Both the position numbers and the translations under genes were made by a program. A stretch of 64,000 bases of DNA from Amphirosellinia nigrospora (taxonomy: Eukaryota; Ascomycota; Sordariomycetes; Xylariales; Xylariaceae). Position 1 is the stretch's first letter. Every line of letters begins with the position of its first letter. The stretch is taken from assembly GCA_004123355.1 (NCBI GenBank), contig SCHM01000002.1:1-64000 (forward strand). Direction: 5' to 3'. Positions 1 to 43,548 of this stretch are shown piece after piece. Below the pieces are notes generated by a model, which worked only from the letters and a program-made list of their open reading frames with translations, did no database searches and was not told where the DNA came from.

Positions 1-3000
1 ACCGCTTAATAAAATAACCTAACAATATAATAAAACATTGTTTAACGTACTAATATTTTTATATTATAAAAAGTTCGTACTAAAAAATAGTAAAAATATT
101 TTAAATATATATATAATATTAATATAATATTAAATATTAAATATATGTTTAAGTTTTAAATTATATTTAAAAAATAAATATATACTTAAGCAGTAAATAA
201 ATAATATATTTTAAATAGTTTTAAATTATTATAAGTTTTATATTATATTATTTAGTTAAAAATAAAAAATAATAATATTTAAAAAACCTAGTTAACTAAA
301 TATCAAAACTAAGGTAAATAAAATTAAAATATAATAAATTAATTATTTAGTTATCCGCGTATAAAATAATATTTTAAAATATTTTATAAAAGTTTTAAAT
401 ATAAAACTATAATATATTAAATAAGCTTTTTTATATATAATATTATAATAATATTATAAATAAAACTATATAAATAAAAATATTATTATAGTTTAATAGC
501 TTATATTTTTTTATAGTTTTAATTAAAATATAATAAAATATATTAAAATTTAAAGTTAATATTATATTTTTTATAAAAATAAATTATTTTGTTTAAACGT
601 TAAATAAATAATTAATAAAAATAAAATATTAAATAGTATTATTATATTAAAATTATTAAATATAAATATTTTTATAGTTATATTTTTAGCTATATATAAA
701 CTTTTAATAATATTATAAAAGCCAATATTAAAAATAAAATCGGTAAATTAAGTTTTATTTTTATATATTAAAAACTACTGTATTTATATTTATTAAATTT
801 TATAGTTATATAATATTTTTAAATATATTTTAAATAAAATATAATAAACTTTTTATTAAAGTTAAAATTTACTATTAAACTTTAAATATTTAAGTTATTT
901 AAATAATAAATAGTTGCTTAAACAGCTCTAGTTATTTTTGCTAGCTAATATTTTTAGTTTGTTTATATTATTATTTAATTTTAAACTATGCTAGCTTTAA
1001 ATAGTACTTAGAAAAATTATTGCTTAAATTATTAATTTACGGAGATTATATTAATATATAATATACTTTTATTAAAAAAACATTTAAATTAATAAAAAAT
1101 ATTATATAGCTTTTATATATAAAAAAAAAAGCTTTAAAAAATATATTATTAAACTAATAACGTTTTAAAAATAAAATAATATATTTTAATATATATATAT
1201 TTAGCTTAAAATTAATAAACGTTAAAACTAAAACAGTTATTATATTATTAAATTTAAATTTTATTTATTAATAAATTTAAATTATTCGGTAAATAAATTA
1301 TATTTATATTATATAAAATAAGATTTTTTAATTATATAATAATAATATATAAATTTTTTAATATTAATTATTATGATTATTATTAAATAATAATTAATTA
1401 TTAATAAATAATTTATTTAAAAATATATATAAATAAAATATTATAAAATAATTTTATTAAAATTAAACTTTATTAACTTTATATTATAAAGCTTTTATTA
1501 AATTATAACTTTTATAATATAAATTTTAATTATATTATTTCGAGCTAATTTTATATAATTATAGTTATTAAAACTATTAAAAAAAAGCATACTTTTTTAT
1601 ATAGCTAAAATAAATAGTTTTATTAAAATATAGCTTTTATAGCTTTTTATTTAATATAAATAAATAAAATATTATAATAATAGCTTTTTAATAAGCTAGC
1701 ATATTTAATTTAATATAATATGCTTTTTTTTATATTTAAAAATATTTAATTTAAATATTTATATTATAGTAGTTTTATAAATTTTTTTAAATATTATTTA
1801 GCCGATATTATAATATTAATATTTTTATATTTAAAAATAAACTTTTTATAGATTTTATTTTTTTAATTTTATTATTTAGCTAAAGTTTTATAATAAAAAA
1901 TATTGCTAGCTTTAATAAATATTATTTGCTATTTAGCTATTATTTATTAGTTATATTATTATATTAAAAGCTTTAATAATTTTATAAATATATAAGCTTA
2001 TATTTAAAAAAAGCACCTAAACTATAACAATAAAAAAAAAATAAAAAAAATATAACATATTATTAAATTATAAAAATTATATTTAAAAACTATACGTAAT
2101 AATTTAATAAATTTAATCTAAATAAAGCTAGCTAATATTTTAAAAAAAAACTTTTTATAAAAAAACGTTAAAAAATAATATATATAATATTTATAAATAT
2201 TAATAAAAATAATAAAACCTAAAAAATAATATTATAAAATAATAAAAAAAAAAATATATAAATTAAAGCTATTTATTAAGTAAATTATTAATAAAGCTTT
2301 AAAATATAAAGCTTAAATAAATTTTATTTTTTTTATAAATTAAAATAAAAAATAATAGAAAATTTTTAATAATATTAAATAAAAATATAAAATAAACTAA
2401 TTATTATTTAAAATTCTATTTATTATTATTTATTTTTAATAATAAGCTTTTTATTAATAGCAATATATTAATATAATAATAAAATTTTATTTTATAGCTT
2501 ATAAAAATTAAATTATTATTTTATTATAAAATAGTTTATTAACTATTATTTATATTTATAGTTATATTTAACTTAGCTATTTTTTATATTTATAGTTATA
2601 TTTAACTTAGCTATTTTTTACGTTTATAGTTATATTTTATTAAACAATTTTTATTATTATTATATTATTTAATATTATAAAATATATTAAAAAGCTTTTT
2701 AACTTTTACTTAAACTATTAGCTAAAATAATTGTTTTTTTTTTAAAACTAAAGGTTTTATAAAATATATAAACTAAATAAATTTTATTTTTTTTATACTA
2801 GTTTAAATATAGCTTTTTATAGCATTTATTACTTTTAAATAATACTTTAATATTTAGTTAAAAATTAAAACAAAATTAATTATATTTTTAGCAGCTATAA
2901 CTAAAATTTAAATAAAAAAATTTAAAATTATATTATATAGTTTAACGTATTAAATAAAATTAAAATAGCTATAAACTTTATATAGTAATATTTCGAAATA

Positions 3001-3079
3001 AATTATATATTAATTATTTTTTTAGTTTTAATTAATAAATAAAATATTTTTTAAATAAAGCTATATAATATTACTTTTA

Positions 3080-3175
3080 AGCTAAAATAATAATAATAAT
3101 AAAGCTAATAATAATAATAATTATAATAATAATAACGATAATAATAATAATAATAATAATAATATTAACTATAAT
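3080..3175. repeat. (TAA)n microsatellite, left-arm copy
   Basis: A run of AAT/TAA trinucleotides, interrupted by a few other bases, lies in the left arm. Its reverse-complement partner is the TTA run at about 37,895-37,990 in the right arm, which gives an independent anchor for the inverted repeat. Confidence 0.75.
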
Positions 3176-5479
3176 AATAAAAATAAAACGTTAAAACTAA
3201 TAATATTAATATTATTAATAAAAAAAATAATATTTAACTTTGTTTATTTAAGCGAAAATATAACGTTTAAACGTTTAATATAAAATTTAATACTATTAAA
3301 AAAATATAAAACTTATAAGCCCGATAAAAATATATATTTATTATTTTTTAATATAATATTATAATTATTATTATATTATTTATGTAAAAATATATAGTTA
3401 TATTAATTATTATAACTATAATATTTTATATATAGTTTTAACCGGTTTTTAATAATAAATTAATAGTTTTTTTTTTATATATTAAGGAGTATTTATTTTA
3501 GCTACTTTTTATATTTAAAATAAAACTTAGCTTTTTCGGCGCGTTTATATAAGCTTTATAAAAACTTTATTTTTAAAATAAATATAATAAAATTTTTAAA
3601 ATAGTATTATTTTTTAATTTTTAATATATTTTATTATATATTATTAAAAATAAATAAAAATAAAAAATAAACTTTTAAATAAATAATAAAGCAGCTATTA
3701 TAATATTTTATATATAAAACTAAAATTTTAATAGTTATTATAGCTTTTTTTTTTTTGTTTTTTTTATATTTATAATTTTTAAAAATATTTATAAAAAGCT
3801 AATAAAACTTTTATAAACGTATTATTATTATTAACTATTTAATATGTTTATTTATTTAATATTTTTTTTGCTATTATATTTTTTTAACTTTAATATATTA
3901 AATAATTATTTAGTTATTTTTATTCGCTATATAATTATAGCTTATTTTTTTCGACGAAATATATTTAATATAGCTTTATTAATAATATATTATCCGTAAA
4001 GTTTAACTAATTAGTTAATAAAAATATTTCTAGCTTTATTTATATTTATTTTTAAGCGTAAAAAAACTTATATATATAAAAAATATTAATTTTTAATAAT
4101 ACGCTTATTAATAATAAAACTACTACTTTTAATATTATTATTTTTAATATTATTATTATAAATATTATTATTTTTATTAAAATTATTAATATATTAAAAA
4201 ATAATAAAATATATTTTTATTTATTAAAAAAATTATTAATATATTTAATAAAATAAATAATTTAACCGAAATTATTATAAATATATTTTAAAAAATAATA
4301 TATTATTAAAATAGTATTAAAAATTTTTAAATATAAATATTATATTTATAAAATTTAGTATTAAATAAAAATTTTAAAAAAAAAAATATATTATTTTTAA
4401 ATAATAAATAAAAAAATTATATAATAAAATTTATAATAATATTATAAAAAAAAAATATAAAATTAAAAACTAAAAAGTAAAAATAATTAAATTTTTAGTT
4501 TTATTAAAAGCTTTTAGTCCGCAGTTTAAATATTTAATAAAATTAAAATTATAATTTTTTAACGTATTATAAAACTAAATAGCCCGTTATAACTTAAGTT
4601 ATTTTTTTGCTATAGCTTTATTTAATATATAAATATATTATTAAATTATATTAAACGTTACTAATAAGCAAAATATTTAAAAAACTTTTAATATATAGCC
4701 GATTAATATAAAAAGCTTTAAAAATATTATTTATTAAACTAAACAATAAAAAAATAAAACGGTTTAAATATTAATTAGCTTATATAAGTTTTTAATTAGC
4801 TAAATATTATATTTATATTTACGTTTATAATAAATAAAAAATTTAATAAAACTATCGAATTTTTTAAAATAACAAACAAATAGCTAAATAATTTTTTTTA
4901 TATAAAATTAACCTAAAATTAAAAATAATAATAATATAGTATTTATAAAATAAAAAAAGCTTATATTAATAAAGTTTAAAACGTTTAGCTTTATTATTAA
5001 ATATTTTTACGAAAATATTATTTTATAAAATTAAAATAGCTTTTAATAATATATATTAGTTAATAAAATATAATTTTAAAACTATTATAAAATAAAATAA
5101 TAAAATATAAGCTATATATATAATTATTATTAAATTTAGCTTTAATAACTTTAGTATAAAATAATTAAAATAAAAATCGGATTAAAACTATTTAATCGAA
5201 AAAAAATTAATATATATATAAATAAATATATAAATTAATAAAAGCTTAATATTAAAAAAGATTTTTTTAATATAAAAAAAGCTTAGTTTTTTTTAAAATA
5301 ATTTTAGTTTAATTAAGCTTTTAAAACGTAAAATATTAAACTAAATAATAAAAAAAAGCATAAAATAATAATTAAATATATATATTTAAAAAATAAAAAT
5401 AAATAATAGCTACTAAAAATATTAGCTTTAGCTTAAAATAAAAAAATAACTGTTTATTATAGCGTTTATTATTTAAGTG

Positions 5480-5610
5480 CTATATTAAGTACTATATAAA
5501 GATTAAAAACCGGATTAAATAAAAAACTTTTTATATATAGCTATATAATTATATAAAGCCTATAAAAATAACTTTATTAGTTATTTATATAATAATAAAT
5601 ATTTATATTT
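5480..5610 (+). repeat. Dispersed repeat copy in left arm
   Basis: About 110 bp containing GATTAAAAACCGGATTAAAT followed by an AT-rich tail ending near TATAAAGCCTATAAAAATAAC. Close copies in the same orientation occur at about 47,890-48,010 and 50,600-50,705. An inverted copy is expected near 35,470-35,600 in the right arm and is visible there. Identity unknown; it may be a recurring internal block of the large element. Confidence 0.55.
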
Positions 5611-7465
5611 ATTTTTATAAAAATTATAATATATAAAGCTAATAATTATTATTTTATTAGTTTTTATATATTTAAGTAGGTTTTTTTAAAATAAACATAA
5701 ATTAAAAATCGCTAATAAAGCTAAGCTATATATAAAAAAAAACCTATTATTTTTTTATTTTTTATTATTTTATAAACAATAATTAAAAAGTTATATTAAG
5801 TACGTTTTATAATATTATAAAAAACGCTATTTAATATATTTTTTAAAAATAAGCTAAAATAATATAAAACGTTTAAAAATTATTAAGCTTTTAGCGCTAA
5901 TAATAATAATAAGTATAAAAAAGCGCTAGCTTATTTATTATTATTATTATAGTTTTTTTTATAAAAATATTATAGTTTTTTATATAAAATAGCTAAATAT
6001 AAAAATATTTAAATATATATATATAAACTAAAATATTACTATTATACGATTTTTTAATAAATTATATAAATAATAGCTAATAAAAAAATAGCTAAATAAT
6101 ATTAACGTATATTATTATATATTATTGCCCGGATTTATAAAAAATTAAAAAAATAGAACTAAAATATTTATTGTTTTTTTTTTTTTTTTTATTTAAAATC
6201 TGGTTTAAAAAAACATTTTTTTCCGGTTTAATTTTAAAACTTTTTTTTTTATATTATTATTATTATTAAAATTTATCGGTTTTATTATTTTAATTTTATA
6301 TTAAACTAGTTTATAAAACTAGCTAAAACTTTTTTAAATAATATTTATAGCTATTTTTTTTAAAACTTTTAAATAATTTATTTTATTAAAAAATTAAAAT
6401 TATTTATAAATATATTATTTTACTATTTAAACTTAAATATTAATATAAAATATTTATAGTTTATAATAACGATTTTAATAATTTTTTTGCTTAAAAAAAG
6501 CAAAATTTATAATAGTAAATAAAAAAGCTTAATTTTTAAACTATTTAATAATATAGCTTTAATATTTATTATTATTAATATATAACTAATTAATAATTTA
6601 ATTATAAAAATTTTTTATAAGTTTATTAAAATTAAAAACCTAAAATATATAAAATATATATTATAATTTTACTTATTAAATAAAGCTATATTTAAGTTTA
6701 AAATAATATATATTAACTATTAGTTTTAATATATTTAAAATAATATAAAAACAAAAAGTATTTATATAAAAATATATTATTAAATAAATATTAAAAAGCT
6801 ATATAGCTTAGTTTTTTATTATTATTATTGTTTAAAAAAGTATATACTATTAATTATATATAATATAATTTATTAATAGTTATAATAAATATGTTTTTTT
6901 TTATATTTTATTCGCGTTTTATTTATATTTTTATTTATATTTAGTATAATAAAGCGTTAAAGTTTTTTAAATTAATTATAATAGCTAAAAAATAGTTTAA
7001 CGGGTTAAATAATTAGCTAATTAATATATTTTTATAAGTTATTATTTATAACTTTATTTACGTTATTTAATACGCTTAATAAATTAGCTATTTAGTTTAT
7101 TATTTAATTAATTATAGCTTAATAATAAAATAATTTTTTTATTTTTATTATATTATTAGTTATATTTATTTTACTATAATAAAACTTAAATAAAAGGCCT
7201 AAAATAAGTTTAAATTAATTAATAAATAATAATAATGCTAAAAGTGCTATAAAGATCTAAAACTAGCTATAAAACCTAGCTATAAAAGCTATATAAACCT
7301 TTAAAAACTTTTATAAAAACTTAAAAAGCCAATATTACCTTAACTATTTTTATAAGCTAAAGCATATTATATTATTGTTATAATATTATTTAAAATAGCT
7401 TTAAGCTTTTTCGAAGAGTTATACTTTAAAAAGTTTATAGAAAAAAGTTTTAAAATTCGGCTATA

Positions 7466-7726
7466 TGTCACAGCCCTACTCTTTTAACCCACTTATCTAT
7501 AGCTATGGCTGCACTGTGGCTGCCCCACAGGGAATGTGTAGCAGTACTAGGCTAAGCGGTGTGTAATAGTAATACTAGGCGGTATAAGGTATATACCCAC
7601 AAATATTTATTATTACTTATAAGTTAATATATTAGTATTTTTTTTTTTTTTTTTAAGTAAAATATTAGCTTTTAATATAAAGTAAATTAAGTATTTAAAC
7701 TTTTTGCTTATATTATATTTATTATA
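7466..7726 (+). repeat. 5' LTR of the Gypsy element
   Basis: It begins TGTCACAGCCC and ends at TTATTATA. It keeps much more G and C than its partner at 21,618-21,876, which reads TATTATAGCCC at the same place. Confidence 0.85.
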
Positions 7727-7970
7727 ATATTTTATTTCGATTATATTATTATTTAAAAAAACAATAAATTCTTATAAAATAAAAAAAAACTAAATCGGTT
7801 AAATTTAGCTAACTATATAATAAAATACTTAAAAAAGCTTTTAATAAAAAAATAATCGTTATAGCTTAGCAATTAATATAGTTTAATATAAATTATATAG
7901 CTAAAAATATTTACGTAAAATAAACTTTATTAATAATAGCGCGCTTAAATACGATTTATTAAATAAGTTT

Positions 7971-8287
7971 TGTCAGCATATAGATCTAGTGCTTAATTGG
8001 CCCAGTGATGGATTACGTAATCACTGGTGCCTGGGTGGCTGTGTGGCACAGTGGTACGTGGCTTTGTGTGTGCGCTGGATACTGCGCGGCACGCGTGAAA
8101 AGAGCCCTTTCTACGCAGGATAAAAGAAGTATTAAGCTGCCGTAGCTACCTAGGCAGATTTTCTAGTATTTAATAAAAAAATAGCTTACTTAGTTTATAA
8201 CTAAAAAATTAAAAATATATAATAGTACGAATATATTAATTAAGCTAACTAACCTAATATTACTTTTTAATATTAATATTATTTTTA
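7971..8287 (+). repeat. 5' LTR of the Copia element
   Basis: It begins TGTCAGCATATAG. Bases up to about 8,165 keep near-normal GC content, unlike the 3' LTR copy, which shows the same sequence with most C and G replaced by T and A. Confidence 0.85.
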
Positions 8288-10134
8288 TATAATAGCTAGC
8301 GCATTTTTACGATTAATCGACTTTTAAAAAGCTTAATTAATATATTTTAGCTATTTCCGGTTATTAACTTAAATTAGTAAATACTAACTAAAAAAAGTTA
8401 AAAAAAATTATTATAAATCTAAAAATTAAAATAATAAAATATTAATATTTATTCGATAAAATAATTAATTAATAAATTAATACTTAATAATAACTAAAAG
8501 TAGTAATATATAACCTTAAAATATATAAAAATAAGCTATACCGGAAAGAAAAAGAATATAATAAAGTTACTAAAAACTTTAAAAAAAAATCGAAAAATAA
8601 TTTATTAATTATAAATATAAAATAAAACTTATAAAAAATAAATTTAACGAAATTATTAATAACTTAAAAAAGTTAAATAGGTTAAATAAAAGGTTAGTTT
8701 TAGTTAATTTAATTAATTTAGTTAATTAAGTTAATTTAGCTAGTAAAAATATATTCGAAGTATTTAATAATAAATAAGATTATTAAGAAAATAATTAAAA
8801 AGTATTAAGCTTTTTAGATAAAGCGGCAAAAAAATAAATAAATTTTTTAAAAAGTTTAAATCGATCGATTTTAAAAAGAAGAAACTAAAGCGTGATTTTA
8901 TTAAAAAAGAGTTTAAAAGCAAAAAAAAAAAAAAATTATTTTTATTTTAAATTTAGACTTAAATTTATTAGATTTGTTATTATTATTGTTAGATTTAAAA
9001 GAATTTAATAATATTTATATTAAACATAGGTATTATTTATCGCGGAAGAACTTAAAAAAGCTTTTATTTATAGATAAAACTAAGCTAAAATAGCGCAAAT
9101 TTAAACTAAAGTTTAATAAAAAAAACTATTTAAAAAAAGCTTAAAACTAATTAATATATTAACGTAATTTATACTTTACTATAAAAACTATTAAATATAA
9201 TTTTAAAAATTCTATTAGTTCGTATAAAGAACTAGTATTAGTATAAGTAATTACTAGCATATTAAAACCAGCTTTTTTAAACCTAATTAAAAACATCAAA
9301 AAAAGGTTATATATATTAAAGATCTTTGGTAAAACTTATAGTATAATAGGCTAAATATACTAAAAAAATATATAGAACAATATTATTAATTATAAATATA
9401 ATAAAAAAAATTTAATACTTTTTATATTTAAATTTTTTAAAAATATAAAATAGTATAAAAACTAAGAAAAAAATAAATATAAACTAATAAGTTATAATAT
9501 TTATAGCTACAATAAAAAATAAAGCAACGGTTTAATATAATATTACTATTAAAGTTATAAAGCATAAAGAATATTATATTTAAAATCTAATCGATAAATT
9601 TAATAATAACTTTAAAAACCGTATAAAAAAAAAGCCCGAGTTAAAAGACTATAAAGAAAAAAGGTCTAATAATAATATTACTAATAAGAATAAGGGTTAT
9701 AGCAAGGGCAATAGCAAAGGCAAGAATTATAAATTAAACTTTAAATCGAACTTTAAAAAAAAGAATTACGATAAAAAAAAAAGGCCTAAATGCTTTAAAT
9801 GCAGCTAATAAGATTATATTGCTAAAAATTACCCTAATAAAGGTAATAATAACTAAAATTAGAACTTTAAACGATTAAAAACTTATAATATTTATAATAA
9901 ACTTATTAAAAGTTAAAAACTATTTATAAGCTTTAAAAATAACTTTAGTTATTTTGCTTATATATAAATATTTTATAAAGTCTAATAAATTTTTATAACT
10001 ATAAAATATTACTTTTTTTTTTTTATACTTAGTTTATTTTTTTTACTTTAAATAATTATAATATTATTAATTATAAATAAAACTGTATTATATAAAGTAA
10101 TTTTAAGCTAAAAAGTTACTACGGCTTAAAAAAC

Positions 10135-10215
10135 TTTAACTTAAAAAACTTTAATTTAAAAAATTTTAATTTAAAAAACCTTAACTTAAAAAATCCTAAC
10201 TTAAAAAATAACTTT
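10135..10215 (+). repeat. 15-bp tandem repeat inside the Copia element
   Basis: About five head-to-tail copies of a unit close to CTTTAACTTAAAAAA, differing mainly by C/T. It lies in the internal region after the zinc-knuckle remnant. Confidence 0.7.
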
Positions 10216-10249
10216 AGCCTTAATAATTACATTAAGCTAGAAAAAAACA

Positions 10250-10385
10250 ATAGCGGACCCGTTTATAAGGAAGATCACTACAGACCTTTTTACGGAAAAG
10301 AAAACAACGGCGGACCCGTTTATAGGGAAGATCACCGCAAACCTTTTTACGGAGAAAAAAACAACTGCGGACCTATCTGCTACGG
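10250..10385 (+). repeat. About 63-bp tandem repeat, little mutated, inside the Copia element
   Basis: Two and a part copies of a unit containing CGGACCCGTTTATA, GAAGATCAC and CCTTTTTACGGA. GC content is clearly higher than in the surrounding element, so this patch largely escaped mutation. Confidence 0.7.
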
Positions 10386-13300
10386 CAAGCCTGTTTATTA
10401 ATCAAAAAATAACGGACCTTTTTATTAAGTAAAAGCTAGCTCTAGTAGTAATAAATCTAGAAATAATTCGAAGCTAATTATTATTAATAATTCGAAGCCG
10501 ATTATTAAGCCAGTTATTAAGCAGAAAACCATAGTAGTAGTACTTCTAACTATATTTACCCTTATATTCTCGCTTTTAACGGCAATTCTAAACAACTTAG
10601 GTTAAAAAAACATACTAAGTATTAAAGTTATTAGTAGTAGCAAACTAAATATTAAGGTTATTATATAAAAAAACAATAGTACTTTTAAGTATACTTATAT
10701 TTTAAAAAATTATTATATTTTAGTATATAAACGTTATATTTATTTAATATAAAGTTAAATATAAAAATATATATAATAAAGCCGACTTTAAAAAAAAATT
10801 AATAATAAATTTAATTAAAAAAATAAAAAATATATAGTTTATATAAAAAGTAAACTTATATAAATTAAAAAAATTAGCACTATTATAAAGAACTTTAAAA
10901 CTTTTAATAAAAATAAATATAATATAAGCGTAAAATATATTTTATTTATTTTATTATTTATTAAATATATTTTTAAAAAAATAACTATATAAAATAAAAA
11001 ATTATTTAAATAAATATACTATAAAAAATAGCTGTAAAATAGCTATTATAAATCTTAATATATAATAGCGTAGTTTTTTTATAAATATATAAAAAAAAAA
11101 GCTTTATATAATATATTAACTTTAAAAAAAGCTATAAAAATTCGCGCTAAATATAATAAATAAAATTAAAGCGTTAAAAGAATTATTGCTTAAATTATTA
11201 TTAAAGAAAAAAGTAAAAATAATTTTTAAAATTTAAAATAAGCTAATTTTTAATATTATTAGCTATACTATTTTAGTATTAAAAAGTTAATATAAATAAT
11301 TAAATATATTATAAATATTAATATCGAACTTAAAAAAGTTAAATATTTTTTTTGCTTTGTTTATAATTAAGCTAAAGCTAAGAAATATATTTCGAAAAAA
11401 GCTATCGAAAAAGCTGATTATTTAAAAGAAATAACCTAAGTAAATTTTAGCTAGATTAAACTAGTTTTAATTAAAAAATATAAGTATTTTTTATTTATAG
11501 TAAATAATAATAGTAAGTATTGTATTTTTAAGGCATATAAAACAAAAAATAAAGCAAAAAGTGTTGTTAAAATATATTTATAATAAATAAACAAAAAATT
11601 AATATTTTAAATACCTTAACCTAATAAAAACTACTAAAAAAATGCCGCGTTTTATATATAAATAGTGGCAAAAAGTTTAATATAAAAGATCTAAAGGTAT
11701 TTTATAATAAAATAAAAGTAACTATTATTATTTTGTTATTTATAAATTAATACTAAAATAGTATAATTAAAAGATTAATAGATTTTATTTAAAATAAAAC
11801 TAAGGCTTTATTTTTATAAACTAAATTACTAATTATATTTTAAGTATATAACGTTTTAGCAACTATATATGTTTTTAATAAAACTAGTTAATTTATAATA
11901 AAAAGAATAACCTCGGCTAAAAAGTATTTTAACTATTTAAATTAAAAAAAAATAATAGATTTAACTTTAATAATTTATAAATAATAAATATACGTTATAT
12001 AGTATTTATTAACGAATTTATACGCGTATTAGTTAAAAAGCTAAAAGCTAAAAAAACTAATACTATATTCTTAGATTATAAAAGTATATTTAATTATATA
12101 GTCTAGCTTACCGAAAGTAATAAAATGTTATATATATTGTACGTTTTTTATAAAAGTATTAAAAATATAAATAACGCTTATAATCTTAAAATATTGTACG
12201 TTTATTATTTTTTAAAGTATAGCGTAAACTTAGGCGGCGTTATTAAAAGATTAAAAATCTTACTTAAATATAGAACTGCGATCGTAATATCGTTAAAAAT
12301 AATATTATAGATAATAAAAACAAACTAAAAAAATATAGCTAACTGTAAAAATAAGCTATTAAATTAACTTATTATTAAGCGTAATAAAAAGAGACTTTAA
12401 AAAAACTTAGTTAAAAGTTTATATTTATTATATAAAACAAATAAAAATTATTTTAATATAATTTATATTTTAAATATAATATTAAGCTAAAAAAAGCAAA
12501 ATATATATATAAATAATTTTATAAGCGATTTAAAATATAAAGCTAAAAAAATAAATTTAAAATTTAAAAAATTAATATAATATTTATAGTTTATAAAAAG
12601 CTAGATTAAATAAACTAAATTATTTTTATATTTTTAAAAAGCTGCTTTTATATAAATATTTATAAAAATTATTAAAAAAATTTATAGTAAAAATATTTAT
12701 TTTTAATAAATTTATTTTAAAAAAAATATTTATAAAAAAAAAAAAAAAAATAGCTTAAAGCTATATTTAAAAAAATACGTAGTTTATTTAAATATAATAT
12801 TTTAAAATTCGTAAAATATATAAAAGCTATTTATAGCTATTTTATTAATTTTATATAAATATTTAAAAAAATATTTATTAATTAATAAACTAGATAAATA
12901 TAAAGCTAGAATTTATGCTTATAGGTTTATTTAGCGTAAAAATATTAACTATAATAAAACTTTTTTTTATAGCTTAAATAACGTTATAGAGGATTTTAAT
13001 AGCTTTAATAGCTGCTCGAAAATAATACGTTATTTAAATCGATTTTATAACAGTATATTTTAATAGAGCTTTTTATAAAAGAATATTTATAAAATAGTTT
13101 AAAATATTAAAAGAATATTTTAAAACTTTTAAATTAAAACAAAAAAATATAACTAGCTAATTAAAAAAATTATTAAACTAATAAAGCTTTTATATAGTTT
13201 TAAATAATTAAAATATAAATAATAAATTAAAGCTAAAAAAATCGTAAATAATTAGATTAAGTTTATAATTTTTAATAACGCTATATATATTAACTATAAA

Positions 13301-15024
13301 ACAAAAAAGTTATAATATTTTATGTAATAATTTTTTAATTATAAGATTTAACTTAGATTATTTAAAAAGTATTGCTATAAAAATTAATAAAATAGTTTTA
13401 GCGAATAATTTAAGCTAAATTAACTAGTTTTTAAGCGTATAAATCGTAAAAAATAAAATTAATAATAATATAAGCTTTAATTAAAAACAATATATAACTA
13501 AAGTATTTAATTTTATTAGTTTAAGTTTAATACGTAAATATTTTATATTTATAAATATTAAAGGGATAATTTACGTTATAAAGTATAAAAAAAAACTTGT
13601 TTTTAAAAATAAAATATTTAATTATACTTTTTTATTTAATAAGTTAAATTTTTTACTTAAATTATAAAGCTTAATATAAGCTTTATTGCTTTTATTTAAA
13701 TAAGATTTATAGCAAATTTTTCTAATAAATATATTAAAAGTATAAAACGATTAGCTAAATATATAAAAAGTACTTTAAATATATAAATTAAGTATAATAA
13801 GCTAAAAAAGGCTATTTATATAGAATTTATAATAATATAGGTTTATTTGCTACTATTAATATTATTTTAGTATTAAATTTATAAAATAATAAGTTATTAA
13901 TAAATATATTGTATTTTTAAATAGCGCGCTAATATTATAGCATTTTAAACTATAGTTAATTATAATAAAAAACTCTACTAAAAATAAATATATTATAATA
14001 AACGAAGTAATAAATAATCTAGTATAAGTAAAGAACTTTTTAAGTAAACTTAGAATATTATTAAATAGTTTTATTATTTTTTTATATAATAAATAAACTA
14101 TAAGTTATTTGAATATATAATATTAAATAAAAAAATAAAAAATAATATTATATTTAATAAAAAAATATAGTACTATAAAAATATTATATATTATATATAA
14201 TTAAATATAAGCTTAATTATCTAATAAGCTAATAATATAAAATTAAAAAATAATTTAGCTAATAAGTTAATTAAACTATTAAAAAACTAAACATAAAAGT
14301 TTTTATTTTTATTTAATTTATAAATTAAAAAAATTAGCAAAAAAAAAAATAAAACTAAGCTTTTTTAAAACTTTATATAATAAGTAATCAATAGTTTAAA
14401 CCCGTTTTTACTACTAAAAAAAGGATTATTAATATATTAACTTTTTAAAAAGTAGTTAACTTAGTACTTTAATATTTATATACCTTAAACTTATAGATTT
14501 TATATATAACTAATTCAATTTATTTTATTATATAATTAATAAGCTTATTAAATATTAATAGGAATAATATTTAGCTAGAAATAACTAGTATTATTTTATT
14601 TATTTTTTAGATCTAAGGAAGTCCTAGGGGTTTAAATCTAAAGGGGTCGGGGTCCTAAAAAATAGCGCTATTAGTTTTTTAATAGTACTTGGATAAGTAT
14701 AAAAAAACGGTGCTATTTTGTTTTATATACTTTATAAAAAATAAAATATTTTAAAAGTTCTTTTTTTAAACTTAAAATAAATAAAAATTATATTAAAATT
14801 ATAATAGTAAACGTTTATAAATAATAATCTTAAGCTAAGTAAAAAATAGGTCCGTTTTAAAATAAATATATAGTTTATATATATACGTAAATACTACGTT
14901 TAGTTTAATTAGTTAACTATACTTTTAGTTATAAAAAAAAGGTTTAATTATAGCACTAAATTAACTTAAAGTTTTTTATTTTTTTTTTCGAAGCTTATAA
15001 ATATAATACTGCAGCTAAAAAGGG

Positions 15025-15334
15025 TATTAATATATAATCTAGTGTTAATTGGCCTAGTAATAGATTACTAATTATTAATGCCTAGGTAGCTATGTGCATA
15101 ATGGCACGTAGCTTTATATATGCGCTAGATATTACGTAGCACGTATAAAAAAAACTTTTTCTACGTAAAATAAAAAGAATATTAAACTGCCGTAGCTGCT
15201 TAAATAGATTTTTAGTATTTATAAAAGAATAGCCTATTTGTTCATAACTAGAAAACTAAAAATATATAATAATACAAATATACTAATTAAACTAACTAAC
15301 CTAGTATTACCCCCTAATATTAACACTATTTACA
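15025..15334 (+). repeat. 3' LTR of the Copia element
   Basis: Aligns over its whole length with 7,971-8,287. Most differences are C-to-T or G-to-A in this copy. It ends TTTACA and is followed directly by the AGTTT target duplication. Confidence 0.85.
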
Positions 15335-15339
15335 AGTTT

Positions 15340-26869: not shown

Positions 26870-26877
26870 TATATAAA
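26870..26877 (+). promoter_or_regulatory. TATA box of the peroxidase gene
   Basis: TATATAAA, 80 bp upstream of the proposed start codon at 26,957. The whole upstream region available between the repeat end and the start codon is only about 120 bp, so any distal promoter lies in, or was replaced by, the repeat arm. Confidence 0.45.
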
Positions 26878-26956
26878 CCTCTCACGAGCCGTCGCAGACG
26901 TCGTAGAAAAATAGTAATAATTAATACCACTACACTCTCGTCAGACACGCAGAAAG

Positions 26957-28611: not shown

Positions 28612-28614
28612 TTC

Positions 28615-28675
28615 CAGCCCAACCCCGGAGTTAACGATTTCTTATTTCGGAAGGATTTTAGCTCTAGAGATACTG
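28615..28675 (-). repeat. Terminal motif, left end of the right copy (inverted)
   Basis: Reverse complement of 26,780-26,838: CCGGAGTTAACGATTTC, TTATTTCGGAAGGATT and AGCTCTAGAGATACTG. It starts within or directly after the last codons of the peroxidase, so this element end interrupts the gene. The outermost bases CAGCCCAAC could be either element or gene. Confidence 0.7.
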
Positions 28676-31600: not shown

Positions 31601-32539
31601 AATTTAATTTTAACTTTATAAAACTAATAATTTTTATAATATATATTTAAAAAAAAAATATAAAAACGTTAATTAAAACGTAAAATATATTATTAATAAT
31701 AATTTTAGATTTTTTATATTTTATTTAAAAAATATTTATTATTTATAGCTTTATATAAAAATATAATTATAATATTATAATATTATTTAATTTTAATAAA
31801 TATTTTAATTAAATAAGTTTTAATTTAATTAAAAATTTTAATAAATTTTATTATATTATAATTTTTAATTTAATATTTATTAATAATATTTATTAAAACT
31901 ATAATATAAAAAAGTTAGTAAAAATTTACGAATAATATTATTAGTATTTTTTATTATTTTTTTTAGCGTTTTTATTTAAAAAATAAAAAAAAAGTTTAAT
32001 TTTTTAAAAAAAAAAGCAAAAAAATTATATTAATATTTAAATTTTTTAAAGTTTTTATAAAATTAAATATATTTTTTTTAAAACTATTTTATTTTAAACT
32101 ATAAAAAAAAAACTTTAAAAAATTAAAAAAATAACTAATTAAAATATATAAACTTTTTTAATTTAATAAATTTTAATTATAACTATAAATCTAAATAAAA
32201 TAAAAATAATATTTAAATAATTAAAAACTATTAATAAAACTAAAAGTTTAATTAAATATTATTTAGTTTTTATTAAAAATAATTATATTTTTATAAATTT
32301 TATAACGTTTAAATAAGCTTAAAAATAAATTATAGTTTTATTTATTTATTTTTTATAAAAAATTTAAGTTATTTTTATATTTAATTATAAACTATAACTA
32401 AAAGTTTTATTTTTAATATTTATTTTAAGCTTATTATAATTATAATTATATAAAAATAAAAAGCTTTTTTATATAAAACGTATAAAAAAAACTTTTTTTT
32501 CCGGTTTTTATTTTAATACTATTTATAAATATATTATAA

Positions 32540-33150
32540 ACTTTAAAAAAATATATATATTTAAGTTATATTTTTAATAAACGTTTAATAAAATAAGCTT
32601 TAAAAATATATAAAAATATATAAACTTTAGAAAAAATATAAATATTTAAGTTATTATTTAATAAACGTTTAATAAAATAAGTTTTAAATAATATATAAAA
32701 AATATATATAAACTTTAAAAAAATATAATTATTTAAATTATACTGTTTAATAAACGTTTAATAAAATAAGCTTTAAATAATATATAAAAATAATATAAAC
32801 TTTAAAAAAAATATAATTATTTAAGTTATATTGCTTAATAAATATTTATTAAAAAAAGCTTTAAAAACTATATAAAAAATATATATAAACTTTAAAAAAA
32901 TATATATATTTAAGTTATATTTTTTAATAAACGTTTAATAAAATAAGCTTTAAATAATATATAAAAATATATATAAACTTTAAAAAAAGTATTTAATTTA
33001 AGTTATACTTTTTAATAAACGTTCGGCAAAAAAAGCTTTAAAAAATATATATAAAATATATATAAACTTCGGAAAAAATATAAATATTTAAGTTATACTG
33101 CTTAATAAACGTTTAATAAAAATAGCTTTAAAAAATATATAAAAATATAT
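32540..33150 (-). repeat. Minisatellite of about 85 bp units, right-arm copy
   Basis: About seven units with the core TTTAATAAACGTTTAATAAA, mirrored by the array at 22,330-22,880. One unit has GTTCGGCAAAA in place of the usual core and looks less mutated. Confidence 0.7.
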
Positions 33151-36100
33151 ATTAAAACTAAAAGCTTAACGTTTTTAAAATATATTTATTTATAAGTTAA
33201 ATTAGTTTAACTTTTCGATTAAAATAGCTATAAAAACTATTTATAAATATTACGCAAGTTTGCCGTTAAACATTATATTATAAAGCTAAAATAATTATAT
33301 AAAACTATAATAAATTTTAAACAAATATTAAAGCTAAACTTAAATATTAAAATATTTAGCTTTTAATTATAAAAGTTTTTATTTAAGTTTATAAAACTAA
33401 AAAAAAAAATATAATAAAGTTTTATATTTAAAAATAGTTCGATAAAAATAAAATATAACTAAAGTTTATATTTAAATATTTAAAATTTAAAATTTAATTT
33501 AGCTAATAATCTTTTTAAAGTTTTTAAAAGCTTTAGTTTTTTATTTTAATTTTAATATAACTTTTTTTATATTTTTAATTTATAGCTAAATTTTAAAACT
33601 TTTTCTTTATAAACTTTTTAAAATATAACTCTTTAAAAAAGCTTAAAGTTATTTTAAATAATATTATAACAATAATATAAATACTTTAGCTTATAAAATA
33701 ATCGGGGTAATATCGGCTTTTTAAGTTTTTATAAGAGTTTTTAAAAGTTTGTATAACTTTTATAGCTAGGTTTTATAGCTAGTTTATATAATAATAAAAA
33801 AAAAAGTTTTAAACATTAAAAAACATAAAATCTTACTTTTTAAAAATAAAAAATTAAATTTTTATAATACTTTTAATACTATTATTATTTATTAGTTAAT
33901 TTAAACTTATTTTAAGCTTTTTATTTAAGTTTTTATTTAATAAACATAAATATAACGAATAATATAATAAAAATAAAAAAATTATTTTATTATTAAGCTA
34001 TAACTAATTAAATAATAATTAAATAGTTAACTTATTAAACGTATTAAACGATATAAAAAATTATAAATAATAACTTATAAAAATATATTAATTAGCTAAC
34101 TATTTAACCTGTTAAGCTATTTTTTAGCTATTATAATTAATTTAAAAAACTTTAATGCTTTATTATATTAAATAAATAGAAATATAAACAAACATAAGCA
34201 AAATATAAAAAAAAAACATATTATTATAACTATTAATAAATTATATTATATATAATTAATAATATATATATTTTTTTAAATAATAATAATAATAAAAAAA
34301 CTAAACTATATAGCTTTTTTAATATTTATTTAATAATACGCTTTTATATAAACGTTTTTTATTTTTACGTTATTTCGAATATATTAAAACTAGCGGTTAA
34401 TATATATTATTTTAAACTTAAACGTAGTTTTATTTAGTAAATAAAATTATAATATATTTTATATATTTTAAGTTTTCGATTTTAATAAACTTATAAAAAG
34501 TTTTTATAGCTAAATTATTAATCGGCTATATATTAATAGTAATAAATATTAAAGCTATATTATTAAGCAGTTTAAAAACTAAGCTTTTTTATTTATTATT
34601 ATAAATTTCTTTTTTTTAAGCAAAAAAATTATCGAAATTATTATTATAAACTATAAATATTTTATATTAATATTTAAGTTTAAATAAGTAGTAAAATAAT
34701 ATATTTATAAATAATTTTAACTTTTTTAATAAAATAAATCGTTTTAAAAGCTTTAAAAAAATAATTATAAATATTTTTAAAAAAGTTCTAGCTAGTTTTA
34801 TAAGCTAGTTTAATATAAAATTAAAATAATAAAGCTAATAAGTTTACGATAATAAATAATATAAAAAAAAAAAAGTTTTAAAACTAGGCCAAAAAAAAGC
34901 GTTTTTTTTAAACTAAATTTTAAATAAAAAAAAAAAAAAAAACAATAAATATTTTAGTCCTATTTTTTTAATTTTTTATAAGTCCGGGTAATAATATATA
35001 ATAATATACGCTAATATTATTTAATTATTTTTTTATTAGCTACTATTTATATAATTTGCTAAAAAATTATATAATAATATATTTTAATTTATATATATAT
35101 ATTTAAATATTTTTATATTTAGCTATTTTATATAAAAAGCTATAGTATTTTATAAAAAAATTATAATAGTAATAATAAATAGGCCGGCGTTTTTTTACGC
35201 CTATTACTATTATTATTAGCGCTAAAAGCTTATAATTTTTAAACGTTTTATATTATTTCGGCTTATTTTTAAAAAGTATATTAAACAGCTTTTTTATAAT
35301 ATTATAAAGCATACTTAATATAGTTCTTTAGTTATTATTTGCAAAATAGCAAAAAAAGCAAAAAAATAATAGGTCTTTTTTTTACGCGGCTTAGCTTTAT
35401 TACGTTTATTTTAAAAAAACCTATTTAAGTATAAAGGCTAATAAAATAATAGTTATTAGCTTTATATATTATAATTTTATAAAAATAGTATAATATTTAT
35501 TATTATATAAATAACTAATAAAGTTTTTATAAGCTTTACGTAATTATATAGCTATATACGAAAAGTTTTTTTATTTAATCCGGTTTTTAATTTTTATATA
35601 ATATTTAGTATAATACTTAAATAATAAGCGCTATAATAAACGGTTGTTTTTTTATTTTAAACTAAAATTAATTTTTAATAGCTATTATTTATTTTTATTT
35701 TTTAAATATATATATTTAATTATTATTTTATTTTTTTACTATTTAGTCCGATATTTTATACTTTAAAAGCTTAATTAAACTAAAATTATTTTAAAAAAAC
35801 TAAGCTTTTTTTATATCGGAAAAATTTTTTTTAATACTAAGCTTTTTATCGACTTATATATTTAATTTATATATATAATTAATTATTTTTTTAATTAAAT
35901 AGTTTTAGTCCGATTTTTATTTTAACTATTTTATACTAAAGCTATTTATAAGCTAAATTTAATAATAATATATATATAGCTTTTTTATATTTATTATTTT
36001 ATTTTATAGCGGTTTTAAAATATTATATTTTATTAATTAATATATATTATTAAAAACTACTTTTAGTTTTAATAATAAATTTTTATAAAAATATTTAATA

Positions 36101-37894
36101 AAAAACTAAACGTTTTAAGCTTTATTAATATAAGCTTTTTTATTTTATAAATATTATATTGCTATTATTTTTAATTTTTAATAAGTTAGCTTTTATAAAA
36201 AAATAATTGTTTAGCCGCTTGTTTGCCCGTTTTAAAAAATTTAATAGTTTTATTAAATTTTTCGTTTATTATAAATATAAATATAAACGTAAATATTTAG
36301 CTAATTAAAAACTTATATAAGCTAATTAATATTTAAGCTATTTTTATTTTTTTATTGCTTAGTTTATAATAAATAACGTTTTTAAAGCTTTTTATATTAA
36401 TTATTATATTAAAGGTTTTTTAAATATTTTATTTACTAGTAATATTTAGCGTAATTTAATAATATATTATATATTAAATAAAGCTATAACGAAAAAATAG
36501 CTTAAGTTATAGCGGGCTATTTAGCTTTATAGCGCGTTAAAAAAATTACGCGATTTTAATTTTATTAAATATTTAAACCGCGGATTAAAAGCTTTTAACG
36601 AAACTAAAAATTTAATTATTTTATTTTTTAGTTTTTAATTTTATATTTTTTTTTATAATATTGCTATAGATTTTATTATATAATTTTTTTATTTATTGTT
36701 TAAAAATAATATATTTTTTTTTTAAATTTTTATTTAATATTAAATTTTATAAATATAATATTTATATTTAGAAATTTTTAATATTATTTTAATTATATTG
36801 CTTTTTAAAATATATTTATAATAATTTTAGTTAAATTATTTATTTTATTAAATATATTAATAATTTTTTTAATAAATAAAAAATATATTTTATTATTTTT
36901 TAATATATTAATAATTTTAGCAAAAATAATAATATTTATAATAGCAATATTAAAAATAATAATATTAAAAATAGTAGTTTTATTATTAATAAATATATTA
37001 TTAAAAGTTAGTATTTTTTATATATATAAGTTTTTTTACGTTTAAAAATAAATATAAATAAAAAGCTAAAATATTTTTATTAGCTAATTAGCTAGATTTT
37101 ATAAACAATATATTATTAATAAAACTATATTAAATTTATTTTATTAAAAAAAATAAGCTATAATTATATAGCGAATAAAAATAATTAAATAATTATTTAA
37201 TATATTAAAACTAAAAAAATAATAATAAAAAAAATATTAAATAAATAAATATATTAAATAGTTAATAATAATAATACGTTTATAAAAGTTTTATTAATTT
37301 TTTAAAATATTTTTATAAAATTATAAAATATAAAAAAACAAAAAAAAAAAAACTATAATAATTATTAAAATTTTAGTTTTATATATAAAATATTTAATAG
37401 CTATTTTATTATTTATTTAAAAGTTTATTTTTTATTTTTATTTATTTTTTTAATATATAATAAAATATATTAAAAATTAAAAAATAATATTATTTTAAAA
37501 ATTTATTATATTTATTTTAAAAATAAAATTTTTATAAAGCTTATATAAACGTACTAAAAAACTAAATTTTATTTTAAATATAAAAAGCAGTTAAAATAAA
37601 TGCTTTTTAATATATAAAAAGAAAACTATTAACTTATTATTAAAAACCGGTTAAAAATATAAAATATTATAGTTATAATAATTAATATAATTATACGTTT
37701 TTATATAAATAATATAATAACAATTATAATAATATTAAAAAATAATAAATATATATTTTATTAAGCTTATAAGTTTTATATTTTTTAATAGCGTTAAATT
37801 TTATATTAAACGTTTAAACATTATGTTTTTGTTTAAATAAACAAAGTTAAATATTATTTTTTTGCTAGTAATATTAATATTATTAATTTTAACG

Positions 37895-37992
37895 TTTTTA
37901 TTTTATTATTATTATAGTTATATATTATTATTATTATATTTTATTATTATTATTATTATTATTTTATTATTATTATTATTATTATCGGTTTT
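37895..37992. repeat. (TTA)n microsatellite, right-arm copy
   Basis: TTA trinucleotide run with few interruptions, mirror of the TAA run at about 3,080-3,175. Confidence 0.75.
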
Positions 37993-39216
37993 ATTATTAT
38001 TATTATTTTAGCTTAAAAATAGTATTATATAGCTTTATTTAAAAAAACGTTTTTATTTTATTAGTTAGAACTAAAAAAATAATTAATATATAATTTATTT
38101 CGAAATATTATATATAAAGTTTATAGTTATTTTAACTTTATTTAGTACGTTAAACTATATAATATAATTTTAAATTTTTTATTTAAATTTTAGTTATAGC
38201 TATTAAAAACGTTAACTAATTTTGTTTTAATTTTTAGTTAAACGTTAAAATATTATTTAAAAGTAATAAATGCTATAAAATAGCTATGTTTAAATTTATA
38301 AAAAAATAAAAGCTTATTTAGTTTGCGTTTTTATAAAACCTTTAGTTCTAAAGAAAAAAATAATTATTTTAGCCAGTAGTCCGGGCAAAAATTAAAAAAC
38401 TTTTTTAGTATATTTTATAGTATTAAATAAATAATAATAAAGAATTGCTTAATAAAATATAATTATAAACGTAAAAAATAACTAGGTTAAATATAACTAT
38501 AAACGTAAATAATAATTAATAAATTATTTATAATAAAATAATAATTTAATTTTCGTAAGCTATAAAATAAGGTTTTTATATATTATACTAATATATTGCT
38601 ATTAATAAAAAGCTTATTATTTAAAAATAAATAATAATAAACGGAATTTTAAATAGCGATTAGTTTACTTTATGTTTTTATTTAATATTGTTAAAAATTT
38701 TCTATTATTATTTATTTTAATTACTAAAAGCCCCTTAATTTAGGGGCAAAAATACTTAAGTTTTTAAAAACCACATATTTAAATTAATAAATAAGTTATA
38801 GTTACCGGTTATACTAGTTCGCTCTTTTTAATAAGTTATATATAGTAAAACTTACTATTTTATTTAATTTATTAACCGTAATATCTTGTTTTTTTATATA
38901 ATTATATAATTATATTATAAAAATATTCGGCCGTTTAGTTAATAATAATAATAAATTTACTTATAAATATAAGCGTTAATATAAATTTTTTATATATTTG
39001 TTTTATTAATAGTAATAATATACGCTAAATTATATTATTGTTTATAATTAAACTATAATTTTAAGCTATAAAGCAAAATTAAAAAGTTAGATATTATAAC
39101 AAATAATTAATTTTTATTTTAAATAAAAAAAACTTACTATAATATTAAAATTTTTAAAAAAATTTTTAACCTAAATAAAATTAAAAAAGTTCTTTAGTAA
39201 GCATAAATTACTATTT

Positions 39217-39305
39217 TAAATTTTAAATATAACTACGAACTATTTTTAATTTTAAATATAACTATAAACTATTTTTAATTTTAAATATAACTATAAACTT
39301 TATTT
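39217..39305 (+). repeat. About 32-bp tandem repeat in the arm-specific insertion
   Basis: About three copies of TTTTAAATATAACTATAAACTA-like units (first copy with ACGAACTA), differing mostly by G/A and C/T. Confidence 0.65.
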
Positions 39306-39367
39306 TAAATAATAGCGCTATTATAAAATATATTAATTTTTATAACATATTAAACTTTTATTTTTTT

Positions 39368-39600
39368 CGAAAAAAGCTTAAGTTTATTAATAAATCTAAA
39401 AAAAACCTTATAAATTAGCTAAAACGTTTAAAAAAAAAAACTTTTTAAAAAAAGCCTAAACTTACTAATAAATTTAAAAAAAACTTATAAACTAACTAAA
39501 ACGTTTAAAAAAAAAAACCTTTTAAAAAAGCTTAAGCTTATTAATAAGTTTAAAAAAAACTTTATAAACTAGCTAAAACGTTTAAAAAAAAAAACTTAAA
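39368..39600 (+). repeat. About 80-bp tandem repeat in the arm-specific insertion
   Basis: Three units, each with GCTTAAG(C/T)TTATTAATAA, a purine-rich AAAAAAAACTT segment and AGCTAAAACGTTTAAAAAA. It lies entirely inside the 38,728-40,316 insertion. Confidence 0.7.
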
Positions 39601-42600
39601 AACCTAAAAAACGCGTTTATTACGATCGATTTAAAGCTTTAAAATCTTCAGAGATTTAAAAACTACGTTTAAATATTATAATAAAAAGCAAAAAAATAAG
39701 CAAAAAAGTTATAAATAAATACTGCGTAAAAAATACTGCTATATTTATTACGCTAATATAATAGCTAATTTTATAATAACCGTAGTTTTTTAAAAACAGC
39801 TTAATAAAAATTATATTAAAGCAAAGTTTATAATAGTAATACCGGTTTATAACCTAAAAATAATAAATATTTAAATTAATATTAAATTAAAAAAACAAAA
39901 AATAAAATAACTATAAATATAATTAAACAAATAATATTAAATAATCGCGTTTAATATAACATATAATTATTAAATAATTAGGTTTAATAAAACGTAATAT
40001 TAAATAATTAAATTTAATATAAAATTAAATTTAATATAATTTATAACAAAAAAAAAATTAAAAATAAACCTTATAATTTATTTATATTATACTATTATTT
40101 TAATATAAATATTTAACTTTAAATTATTATTAAATTTATAATTATCCGTATAATAAAAATAAATACTAAAACTAAGTATATACAATAAGTAAAAATAAAA
40201 AGGTTCTTAATTCGGGTAAAAGAATTTTTATTTAAGATATAAAAAACAAAAAATTTTTTATTAACAAGAAAACCTTCCTTTTACTTAGTTATACCTCCTT
40301 TATAAAACTTAAGCATTATAAAAAAAATATAAGATTTATTTAAGCTTTATATCTTAAAGCTTTATTAGTAATATTGCTTAGTAAATAGTTTTAATTTATA
40401 TACTTTTTTTTTTATTAGCTTATAATATTACTTTTTAAGTTTTATTATTTTTATTAATATTTTATAAATACTATATATATTACTTTTTAACGTTTTTTTA
40501 TAAAAAGTTTTTTTTTAAAATATTAGCTAGTTTTATTTAAATTAAATTTATTAAATTGCTACGTATAGTTTTTAAATATAACTTTTATAATTTAATAGTA
40601 CGTCTACTTTTTTTATTTTTTTTTATTATAGTTTAAATGTTTTTTTAAATATAAGCTTATATATTTATAGGGTTATTAAAGCTTTAATATAATAATATAG
40701 CTAATAAATATAGCTAAATAGCGAGCAATATTTGCTAAAACTAGCAATATTTTTAATTATAAAACTTTAGCTAAATAGCAAGATTAAAAGAAATAAAATC
40801 CGTAAAAAGTTTATTTTTAAACATAAAATACCGGTATTATAATAGTCAGCTAAATAATATTTAAAAGAGCTTAAAATTATTATAATATAAATATTTAAAT
40901 TAAGCATTTTTTAAACATAATAAAAAGCGTACTATATTAGGTTAATATACTAGCTTATTAAAAAGCTATTATTATAGTATTTTATTTATTTATATTAAAT
41001 AAAAAAAGCTATAAAGCTATATTTTAGCAGGATATTTATTTTTAGCCGCAAAAAGCACGCTTTTTTTTAATAGTCTTAACAATTATAATTATACAAAATC
41101 GGCTTAAAAACAATATAATTAAGATTTATATATAAAAAGTTATAATATTAATAAAAACTATTTAATTTAATAAAGTTTAATTTTAATAAAATTATTAAAT
41201 TTTACGCCCGTTTATAGCTATTTATTAAATTATATTATTACCTAGGCTATTATAGTAATAATTATTAAAAAATATATTTATTATTATATAATTAAAAAAA
41301 TTTTATTTTACGTAATATAAATATAATTTGTTTATTAAACGATTTAAATTTACTAGTAAATAAAATTTAAAATTTAATAACGTAATAATTATTTTAGTTT
41401 TAACGCTTATTAATTTTTAAGCTAAATAATATATATTAAAATATATTATTTTATTTTTTAAAACATTATTAATTTAACGATATATTTTTAAAGCTTTTTT
41501 TTTTGCTATATAAAGCTATATAATATTTTTTTGCTAACTTAAATATTTTTTTAATAAAAGTATATTATATATTAATATAATTTCTATAAATTAATAACGT
41601 TTAAGCTAATAATTTTCTAAATATTATTTAAGCTAATATAATTTTAAGATTAAATAATAATATAAGCAAGCTAAAAACATTAACTAGTAAAAATAACTAG
41701 AGCTGCTTAAATAGCTATTTATTATTATAAACAGCCTTAAATGCTTAAAATTTTAGTAATAAATTTTAACTTTAATAAAAAGTTTATTATATTTTATTTA
41801 AAATATATTTAAAATATTATACAACTGTAAAGTTTAAATATTAAATATTAATAGCTCTTAATATATAAAAATAGATTTAATTTGCTAATTTTATTTTTAA
41901 TACTACTTTTATAATATTATTAAAAGTTTTATATATAGCTAAAATATAACTATAAAGTATTTATATTTAGTAATTTTAATATAATAATACTGTTTAATAT
42001 TTTATTTTTTATTAATTATTTATTTAATATTTAAATAAAACAATTTATTTTTATAAAAAATATAATATTAACTTTAAATTTCGATATATTTTATTTATAT
42101 TTTAATTAAACTATAAAAAATATAACTATTAAACTTATAATAATATTTTATTTATATAGTTTTATTTTTATAATTTATTATAGTATTATATAAAAACTTA
42201 TTTAATACGTTATAGTTTTATATTTTAAAACTTTTATAAAATATTTTAAATATTAAATATTATTTTATACGCCGGACAACCGGACAGTTAACTTATTATG
42301 TCCTTTTAATTTTATTAACCTTGGTTTTATATTTAATTAACTAGGTTTCTTAGGTATTATTATCTTTTGTCCTTAATTAAGTTGGTGGATATAAAATCTC
42401 ACGGCAATTTAAAACTACCTAGAAATTTACTTATTGCTTAAGCATATATTTATCCTTTAAACGTAAACTTAAACTTTAAGCATATATTTAATATTTATAT
42501 GTATATTTAACATTTATATACGTATTTAATACTTATATATATTTAATATTTTATATATACTTATAAATATTTTTTACTATTTTTTAGTACGAACTTTTTA

Positions 42601-43548
42601 TATTATAAAATATTAGTACGTTAAATAATATTTTATATTATTAAGCTATTTTATTAAACGTATAGTTTTTATTTTATATTTTTAGCTTTTTAAAGTATAT
42701 ACGCTATTAAAGTTTTGTATAAATATTATATTAATAATATATTTTATATTTAGTAGCTTTTATTGTTTTCGATAAGTATTTTAATAAATATTTAATATTC
42801 GAAAAGTATTTTTTAATATTTTTAATAGCTATATTAATATTATAGATAATATAGTTATTAAGTATATTAAATAATATAATATATTACGAACTATTAATTA
42901 TTAAAATTTTTTATATAATAGTTTTAAAGTAAATTAACGCTAATAGTTATAGTTTTTCTATTAATTTAAAACAAACGAATTTCCCGGAAAAAAACTAGGA
43001 TTAAAAAGGATATTATAACAAAAACTTAGATAAAAACCAGAACTATAATTATGCACTATTTAATAAATAACAATATATTATTAATTTAATTCGGACTAAT
43101 AAAAACGAAAAAAACGAAAGTAAAAAATATATAAGGTTATAAAGGACAAAAAAACCAGAAAAATAATAAAAAAAAAAAAAAAAATCTTTTATACTAAAGT
43201 AAATATATTATATAATTACGTAAGTTTAGTTTAACGATTATTATAAAATATATAAAGTTATAGTTATATTTATATTTTAAATTATTTTATTTTATACTTT
43301 TTAACTATTTTTTTTACGTTAATATAAATATATTTATCTTAAAGTTTAAAAATATTTTAAGTTTTTATTTTTTTTGCTTCGTTAAAAATATAAAAAAAGC
43401 TATTATAATTAATATTAAAAAATTAAACGAACTATATTAATTTATACGCGTATAGTTTGATCTACTATTATAGTGCTTTAATTATTTATTTTTGCTATAA
43501 AGCTAATAAAGTATTAATTTATTTAACGTTAGAATTTATGCTTTCTCT

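Follow-up and report, generated by a model that had tools for sequence, protein, structure and literature searches.

A giant palindrome around a putative haem peroxidase gene in AT-rich DNA of the ascomycete Amphirosellinia nigrospora

Our analysis of a 64,000-bp stretch of the Amphirosellinia nigrospora genome (assembly GCA_004123355.1, contig SCHM01000002.1, positions 1–64,000 of the forward strand; hereafter, the window) confirmed, at the sequence level, a giant palindrome of more than 42 kb that is both real and old. Its arms face each other across a short GC-rich loop carrying a putative haem peroxidase gene, with the centre of the palindrome near position 27,726. The left arm spans position 1 to about 26,838 and is interrupted by a 14.4-kb nested insertion of long terminal repeat (LTR) elements; the right arm spans about 28,613–42,665 and carries an insertion of about 1.6 kb. 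Once the LTR insertion is subtracted, the arms measure about 12.4 kb (left) and 14.05 kb (right). Since the left arm touches the first base of the window, the outer end of the palindrome lies outside it, and the palindrome may be larger.

A BLAST comparison of the sequence with itself revealed a collinear antidiagonal whose best match reached 5,142 bits, whereas five surrogate sequences from a fourth-order Markov model of positions 1–42,665 gave top self-matches of 108–140 bits at identities of at most 62%. From the outside inwards, the inverted blocks pair 91–2337 with 42537–40319 (83.4% identity; extended to base 3 in a separate self-comparison), 2331–7260 with 38729–33854 (87.4%), 7248–7465 with 33796–33581 (88.6%), and 21877–26552 with 33585–28854 (85.9%). 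Aligning the arms directly (1–7,468 plus 21,881–26,838, omitting the LTR insertion, against 28,613–42,665) yielded 12,079 columns at 88.6% identity with 1,375 mismatches. The arm lengths proposed in the initial annotation, about 12.4 and 14 kb, were thus upheld. It had also anticipated an antidiagonal broken only by the LTR pair and the 1.6-kb insert; both large breaks are present, but so are eight gaps of 15–89 bp and a poorly aligned stretch of about 190 bp near the loop. The outer (1–7465, plus strand) and inner (21877–26552, plus strand) parts of the left arm have GC contents of 9.5% and 8.3%, respectively, the former running off the window. The inner part holds a tandem array (22337–22875, units of about 86–89 bp), whose counterpart lies at about 32511–33152 in the right arm, which self-alignment identifies as the inverted copy (28854–42665, minus strand).

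Repeat-induced point mutation (RIP) is a premeiotic process that requires the fungal RIP genes, introduces C:G to T:A transitions into duplicated DNA, and spares single-copy DNA. The divergence between the arms is rich in such changes: 994 of the 1,375 mismatches are C/T or G/A, in line with the predominance of such differences noted in the initial annotation. The GC content of the arms is 8–13% (about 5–14% per kb), compared with 54.7% in the loop. Estimated cytosine survival in the left and right arms, respectively, was 34% and 44% at CpA, 39% and 54% at CpG, 62% and 67% at CpT, and 58% and 86% at CpC. It was thus lowest at CpA, with a slight preference over CpG, a pattern for which RIP is the probable agent. 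C or G was retained in both arms at 705 positions, in the left arm only at 398, and in the right arm only at 596. Identity per 100 bp was over-dispersed (variance 24, versus 9.7 for a binomial). The longest identical run between the arms spanned 94 columns, with about 62 expected under uniform identity, and therefore gave no indication of recent gene conversion over long tracts.

The loop (26839–28612, plus strand) is 1,774 bp long, and no second copy of it was found in the window, within which its single-copy status holds. It contains a haem peroxidase gene in pieces. When seven pieces were searched against Pfam, three matched the peroxidase family PF00141 (27131–27328, 27426–27668, and 27496–27717; E values 0.0024, 6.4e-5, and 8.5e-6), all short of the curated whole-protein cut-off, and four matched nothing; one of the PF00141-matching pieces also matched Vps8 RING (E 0.29). 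A sequence search against the PDB returned no match for piece 27131–27328 and twelve weak rows for piece 27496–27717, comprising nine catalase-peroxidases (E 0.19 to 0.95) and three designed proteins (E 0.013, 0.025, and 0.94). The loop agrees with the previously proposed gene-sized GC island, and the product of its gene is, on these weak PF00141 matches, a putative haem peroxidase. Several frame changes occur within the coding sequence. Introns can account for some of these, and for some of those in an LsmAD-domain gene of the right flank; assembly indels also look likely, and the broken frames are therefore no basis for regarding the peroxidase as a pseudogene.

Each arm carries its own insertion, and both had been recognized in the initial annotation. 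That in the left arm (7466–21876, plus strand; 14,411 bp) is bounded by LTRs at about 7466–7730 and 21618–21876, which are 84.6% identical, and by an exact 5-bp target-site duplication (TSD), CTATA, at 7461–7465 and 21877–21881. Nested in it is a second LTR element (7971–15334, plus strand) with TG...CA ends and an exact 5-bp TSD, AGTTT, at 7966–7970 and 15335–15339; both TSDs were identified by eye. A six-frame Pfam search of the left-arm insertion (stop codons read as X, E values up to 1) recovered no family. With an LTR pair and a TSD, heavily mutated sequence, and no reverse transcriptase or integrase match, we classify it only as LTR-retrotransposon-like. The right-arm insertion (38723–40318, strand undefined; boundaries good to about 10 bp) measures 1,596 bp with 14% GC, and is possibly a small non-autonomous element. 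By eye, it shows CTTAAGTTTT in inverted orientation near both ends, and a short hairpin with a 6-bp GC-rich stem near one end. A candidate 8-bp target duplication was dropped, being an overlap in AT-rich sequence that was unclear by eye. As each insertion is confined to one arm, the insertions most simply arrived after both arms existed, rather than having been lost from one of them.

We favour, at about even confidence, an inverted segmental duplication around the peroxidase gene, followed by RIP of the arms with the loop spared, and by later insertions. In this account, a progenitor segment no shorter than 12.4 kb, situated within or next to an AT-rich and probably heterochromatic block, would have ended up as two oppositely oriented copies flanking one peroxidase gene, most likely through inverted segmental duplication. 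RIP would then have mutated both arms because they are duplicates of each other, while the peroxidase gene, single-copy within the window, stayed at 55% GC. Subsequent insertions would have placed an LTR element in the left arm, a second LTR element within the first, and an element of about 1.6 kb in the right arm. The palindrome itself would be passive and without function.

Several observations would fit this origin by duplication. The arms contain no LTR-like pair: tandem arrays aside, no spaced direct pair scored above 91.5 bits, and two real LTR pairs, scored in the same way as a positive control, reached 278 and 236 bits. A six-frame Pfam search covering only the right arm (under the settings used for the left-arm insertion) recovered no family. 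A capture-recapture estimate from the surviving C and G positions gave an apparent arm progenitor of 17% GC, whereas the two LTR pairs yielded 33% and 44%. Taken at face value, this figure would fit a segment of already RIP-mutated, immobile DNA that was depleted when duplicated, with which it is compatible without demonstrating it.

Other observations weigh against the duplication account. The 17% estimate is not decisive, as heterogeneity of rates among sites reproduces the overlaps from an ancestor free of RIP. Simulating such an ancestor at 50% GC produced 189 shared CpT sites under equal site rates, versus 477 observed, and 457 and 546 under gamma-distributed rates with shapes 1 and 0.5, respectively (one run each). 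Gamma rates of shape 1 thus yield similar overlaps, and RIP before the duplication cannot be concluded. The LTR controls for progenitor GC are short (259 and 321 columns), and the arm comparison is confined to the window. At about 10% GC, protein domains, including those of any mobility gene, may be unrecognizable. Finally, the apparent progenitor GC of the inner end, which is poorly aligned, is 38%, and this value, like a motif at 52.47 kb described below, would suit transposon termini. The earlier observation of transition-rich divergence stands; that all RIP struck after the arms arose, as also proposed earlier, would fit the gamma simulation but not the 17% estimate taken at face value.

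A single-copy gene between two RIP-mutated arms amounts to a natural experiment on how abruptly RIP ends at an edge of homology. Here, the inner end of the left arm (26553–26838, plus strand; 35% GC) is little mutated, and its inverted copy at the inner end of the right arm (28613–28853, minus strand; 23% GC) more so. Past the point at which the BLAST match stops (26,552), part of a stretch of about 190 bp runs in the same direction as its right-arm counterpart, suggesting that short repeats there underwent a small local inversion; about 100 bp of clear inverted repeat follow. At both loop edges, the inverted match extends about 10 bp past the limits given above (26,839–28,612). Both inner arm ends are formed by one sequence of about 60 bp, which has a suggestive third copy at 52460–52527 (plus strand), where the AT-rich block gives way to GC-rich DNA.

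These arm ends bear on the other origin offered by the initial annotation, in which two copies of one giant transposon, in opposite orientation, flank the peroxidase gene. In that case, the right copy may measure about 24 kb, starting at 28,613 and ending near 52.52 kb, at the AT/GC edge. We regard opposed transposons as the less probable of the two origins, though a tentative possibility of some weight. It would account for the shared sequence at the inner arm ends, and the motif at the edge is oriented as a terminal inverted repeat would be. In a RIP-tolerant scan with the right-end query, the best other match in the window was at 52,468, and only one of 120 surrogates was as good. With a 64-bp left-end query, the best other match was again the 52.47-kb edge, but 33 of 120 surrogates reached it; with a 49-bp left-end query, a site at 61,177 outscored the edge, and its score was reached by 20 of 120 surrogates. 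The edge match was therefore significant with one of three queries only. BLAST assigned it an E value of 2e-4 in a search restricted to 52300–52800, and a gapped test was not significant (left end, 68 versus shuffled-query bests of 72–92; right end, 61 versus 50–74). No TSD was recognized by eye for the right copy as a transposon, and beyond the negative search of the right arm, the six frames of 42,666–52,470 held no convincing Pfam domain. We thus treat the edge motif as suggestive, a lead for transposon termini and nothing more.

A further reading, which we consider tentative and on the whole unlikely, concerns the AT-rich block as a whole. This block extends over about 52 kb at roughly 5–25% GC per kb, the loop apart, with its left end beyond the window. 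The loop interrupts it as a GC-rich island at about 26.8–28.7 kb, and the block ends at a sharp AT/GC edge at 52.5 kb, beyond which GC content is about 50%. The block may be a regional centromere, with the palindrome providing a core flanked by inverted repeats. This interpretation is compatible with either duplication or opposed transposons, and since it excludes neither origin, our confidences in these readings overlap. In its favour, a Trichoderma reesei study describes a similar layout in four centromeric scaffolds, with a 1–2-kb core inside inverted repeats of 2.5–5 kb (PMC5469131); here, a 1.77-kb core lies between 12.4-kb arms. However, the T. reesei regions are reported there as 10–40 kb long, 76% AT, and gene-free or with dubious genes (PMC5469131), whereas the block described here is larger and more AT-rich, and its core is a GC-rich gene. 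Moreover, the centromeres of Magnaporthe oryzae, AT-rich and 57–109 kb long, are described in PMC6667624 as being without centromere-specific motifs or repetitive elements. A more specific version strikes us as decidedly unlikely: a centromere like that of fission yeast in a filamentous fungus, with a single-gene core spared by RIP, inverted repeats 12 kb or more in length (perhaps 24 kb), and RIP keeping the arms AT-rich and the core distinct.

The edges of the loop raise the question of whether the whole structure could be a single large mobile element, similar to a foldback element and bounded by very long terminal inverted repeats, in which the peroxidase gene is captured cargo. By eye, the left arm stops about 120 bp before the likely peroxidase start codon, the loop contains a TATA-like motif at about 26,870, and the right arm starts just behind the coding region, all of which would favour this reading. 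Nevertheless, neither outer end could be observed, there is no known second copy, and no mobility gene was found, and we judge such an element highly improbable. Least probable of all is an assembly artefact in which two AT-rich regions were mis-joined at the peroxidase gene: repeated frame changes in the loop and in right-flank coding sequence indicate that the assembly may hold many indels, but the inverted match continues to about the gene edges on both sides, and the 11% divergence between the arms, mostly transitions, together with their different insertions, means that neither arm is a copy of the other's read and argues against a fold-back read artefact, though not against every mis-join.

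The window as a whole has a GC content of 20.6%, and scans for Rfam families (at the gathering threshold) and for tRNAs each returned no hits in it. Outside the palindrome, the AT-rich block contains tandem repeats in less mutated sequence at 43548–43806 and 44131–44591, the former being a trinucleotide-like run whose translations read as poly-Q, poly-S/N, or poly-A/T. In the search of 42,666–52,470, the sub-cut-off matches to New_glue (E 0.00037), Nop14 (0.0072), TFIIA (0.37), and MUCL1 (0.96) were rejected, as they were taken to stem from low complexity in the trinucleotide-rich stretch near 43.5–43.8 kb. A dispersed short repeat of about 60–90 bp, with copies 81–91% identical to the first, is common to the outer block (47897–47985, 50604–50692, and 50388–50451), the left arm (5496–5574), and the right arm (35524–35597). 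Just outside the block, an open reading frame at 53984–55039 (minus strand) shows a weak LPMO_10 match (E 0.00076, below the cut-off) and may resemble a secreted lytic polysaccharide monooxygenase. Further along, the LsmAD-domain gene at 59078–61688 (minus strand; LsmAD at 61.3–61.7 kb, E 1.2e-22), which we take to be Pbp1/ataxin-2-like, is apparently spread over several frames, suggesting introns and probably assembly indel errors.

The components of this locus resemble known systems to differing degrees. As in RIP-affected duplicated DNA of other Pezizomycotina, we find C:G to T:A transitions, the lowest cytosine survival at CpA, and a spared single-copy gene; the very low GC content and the layout as a single large palindrome set the locus apart. 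The left-arm insertion and its nested element share LTR pairs and 5-bp TSDs with fungal LTR retrotransposons, but differ in that no protein domain was recognized in six frames. The earlier statement that palindromes this large are rarely reported in fungi needs qualification. Besides the four T. reesei scaffolds with inverted repeats around 1–2-kb cores, similar large inverted repeats were noted in Fusarium graminearum, according to PMC5469131, which, within the literature surveyed, was the only source describing such structures in filamentous fungi. Smaller inverted repeats in AT-rich, RIP-affected fungal DNA are therefore already known, and the palindrome represents a striking variant, not a new class. 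Should the block prove centromeric, it would be relevant to the question, raised but left open in that source, of whether inverted repeats contribute to defining centromeres in filamentous fungi (PMC5469131). With the T. reesei centromeric regions as presented there, the locus shares an AT-rich region, a core of 1–2 kb, and flanking inverted repeat arms, and it differs in its arms of at least 12.4 kb, versus 2.5–5 kb, and in its GC-rich gene as core (PMC5469131). The block described here combines a layout like that of T. reesei (PMC5469131) with a size like that of M. oryzae centromeres (PMC6667624).

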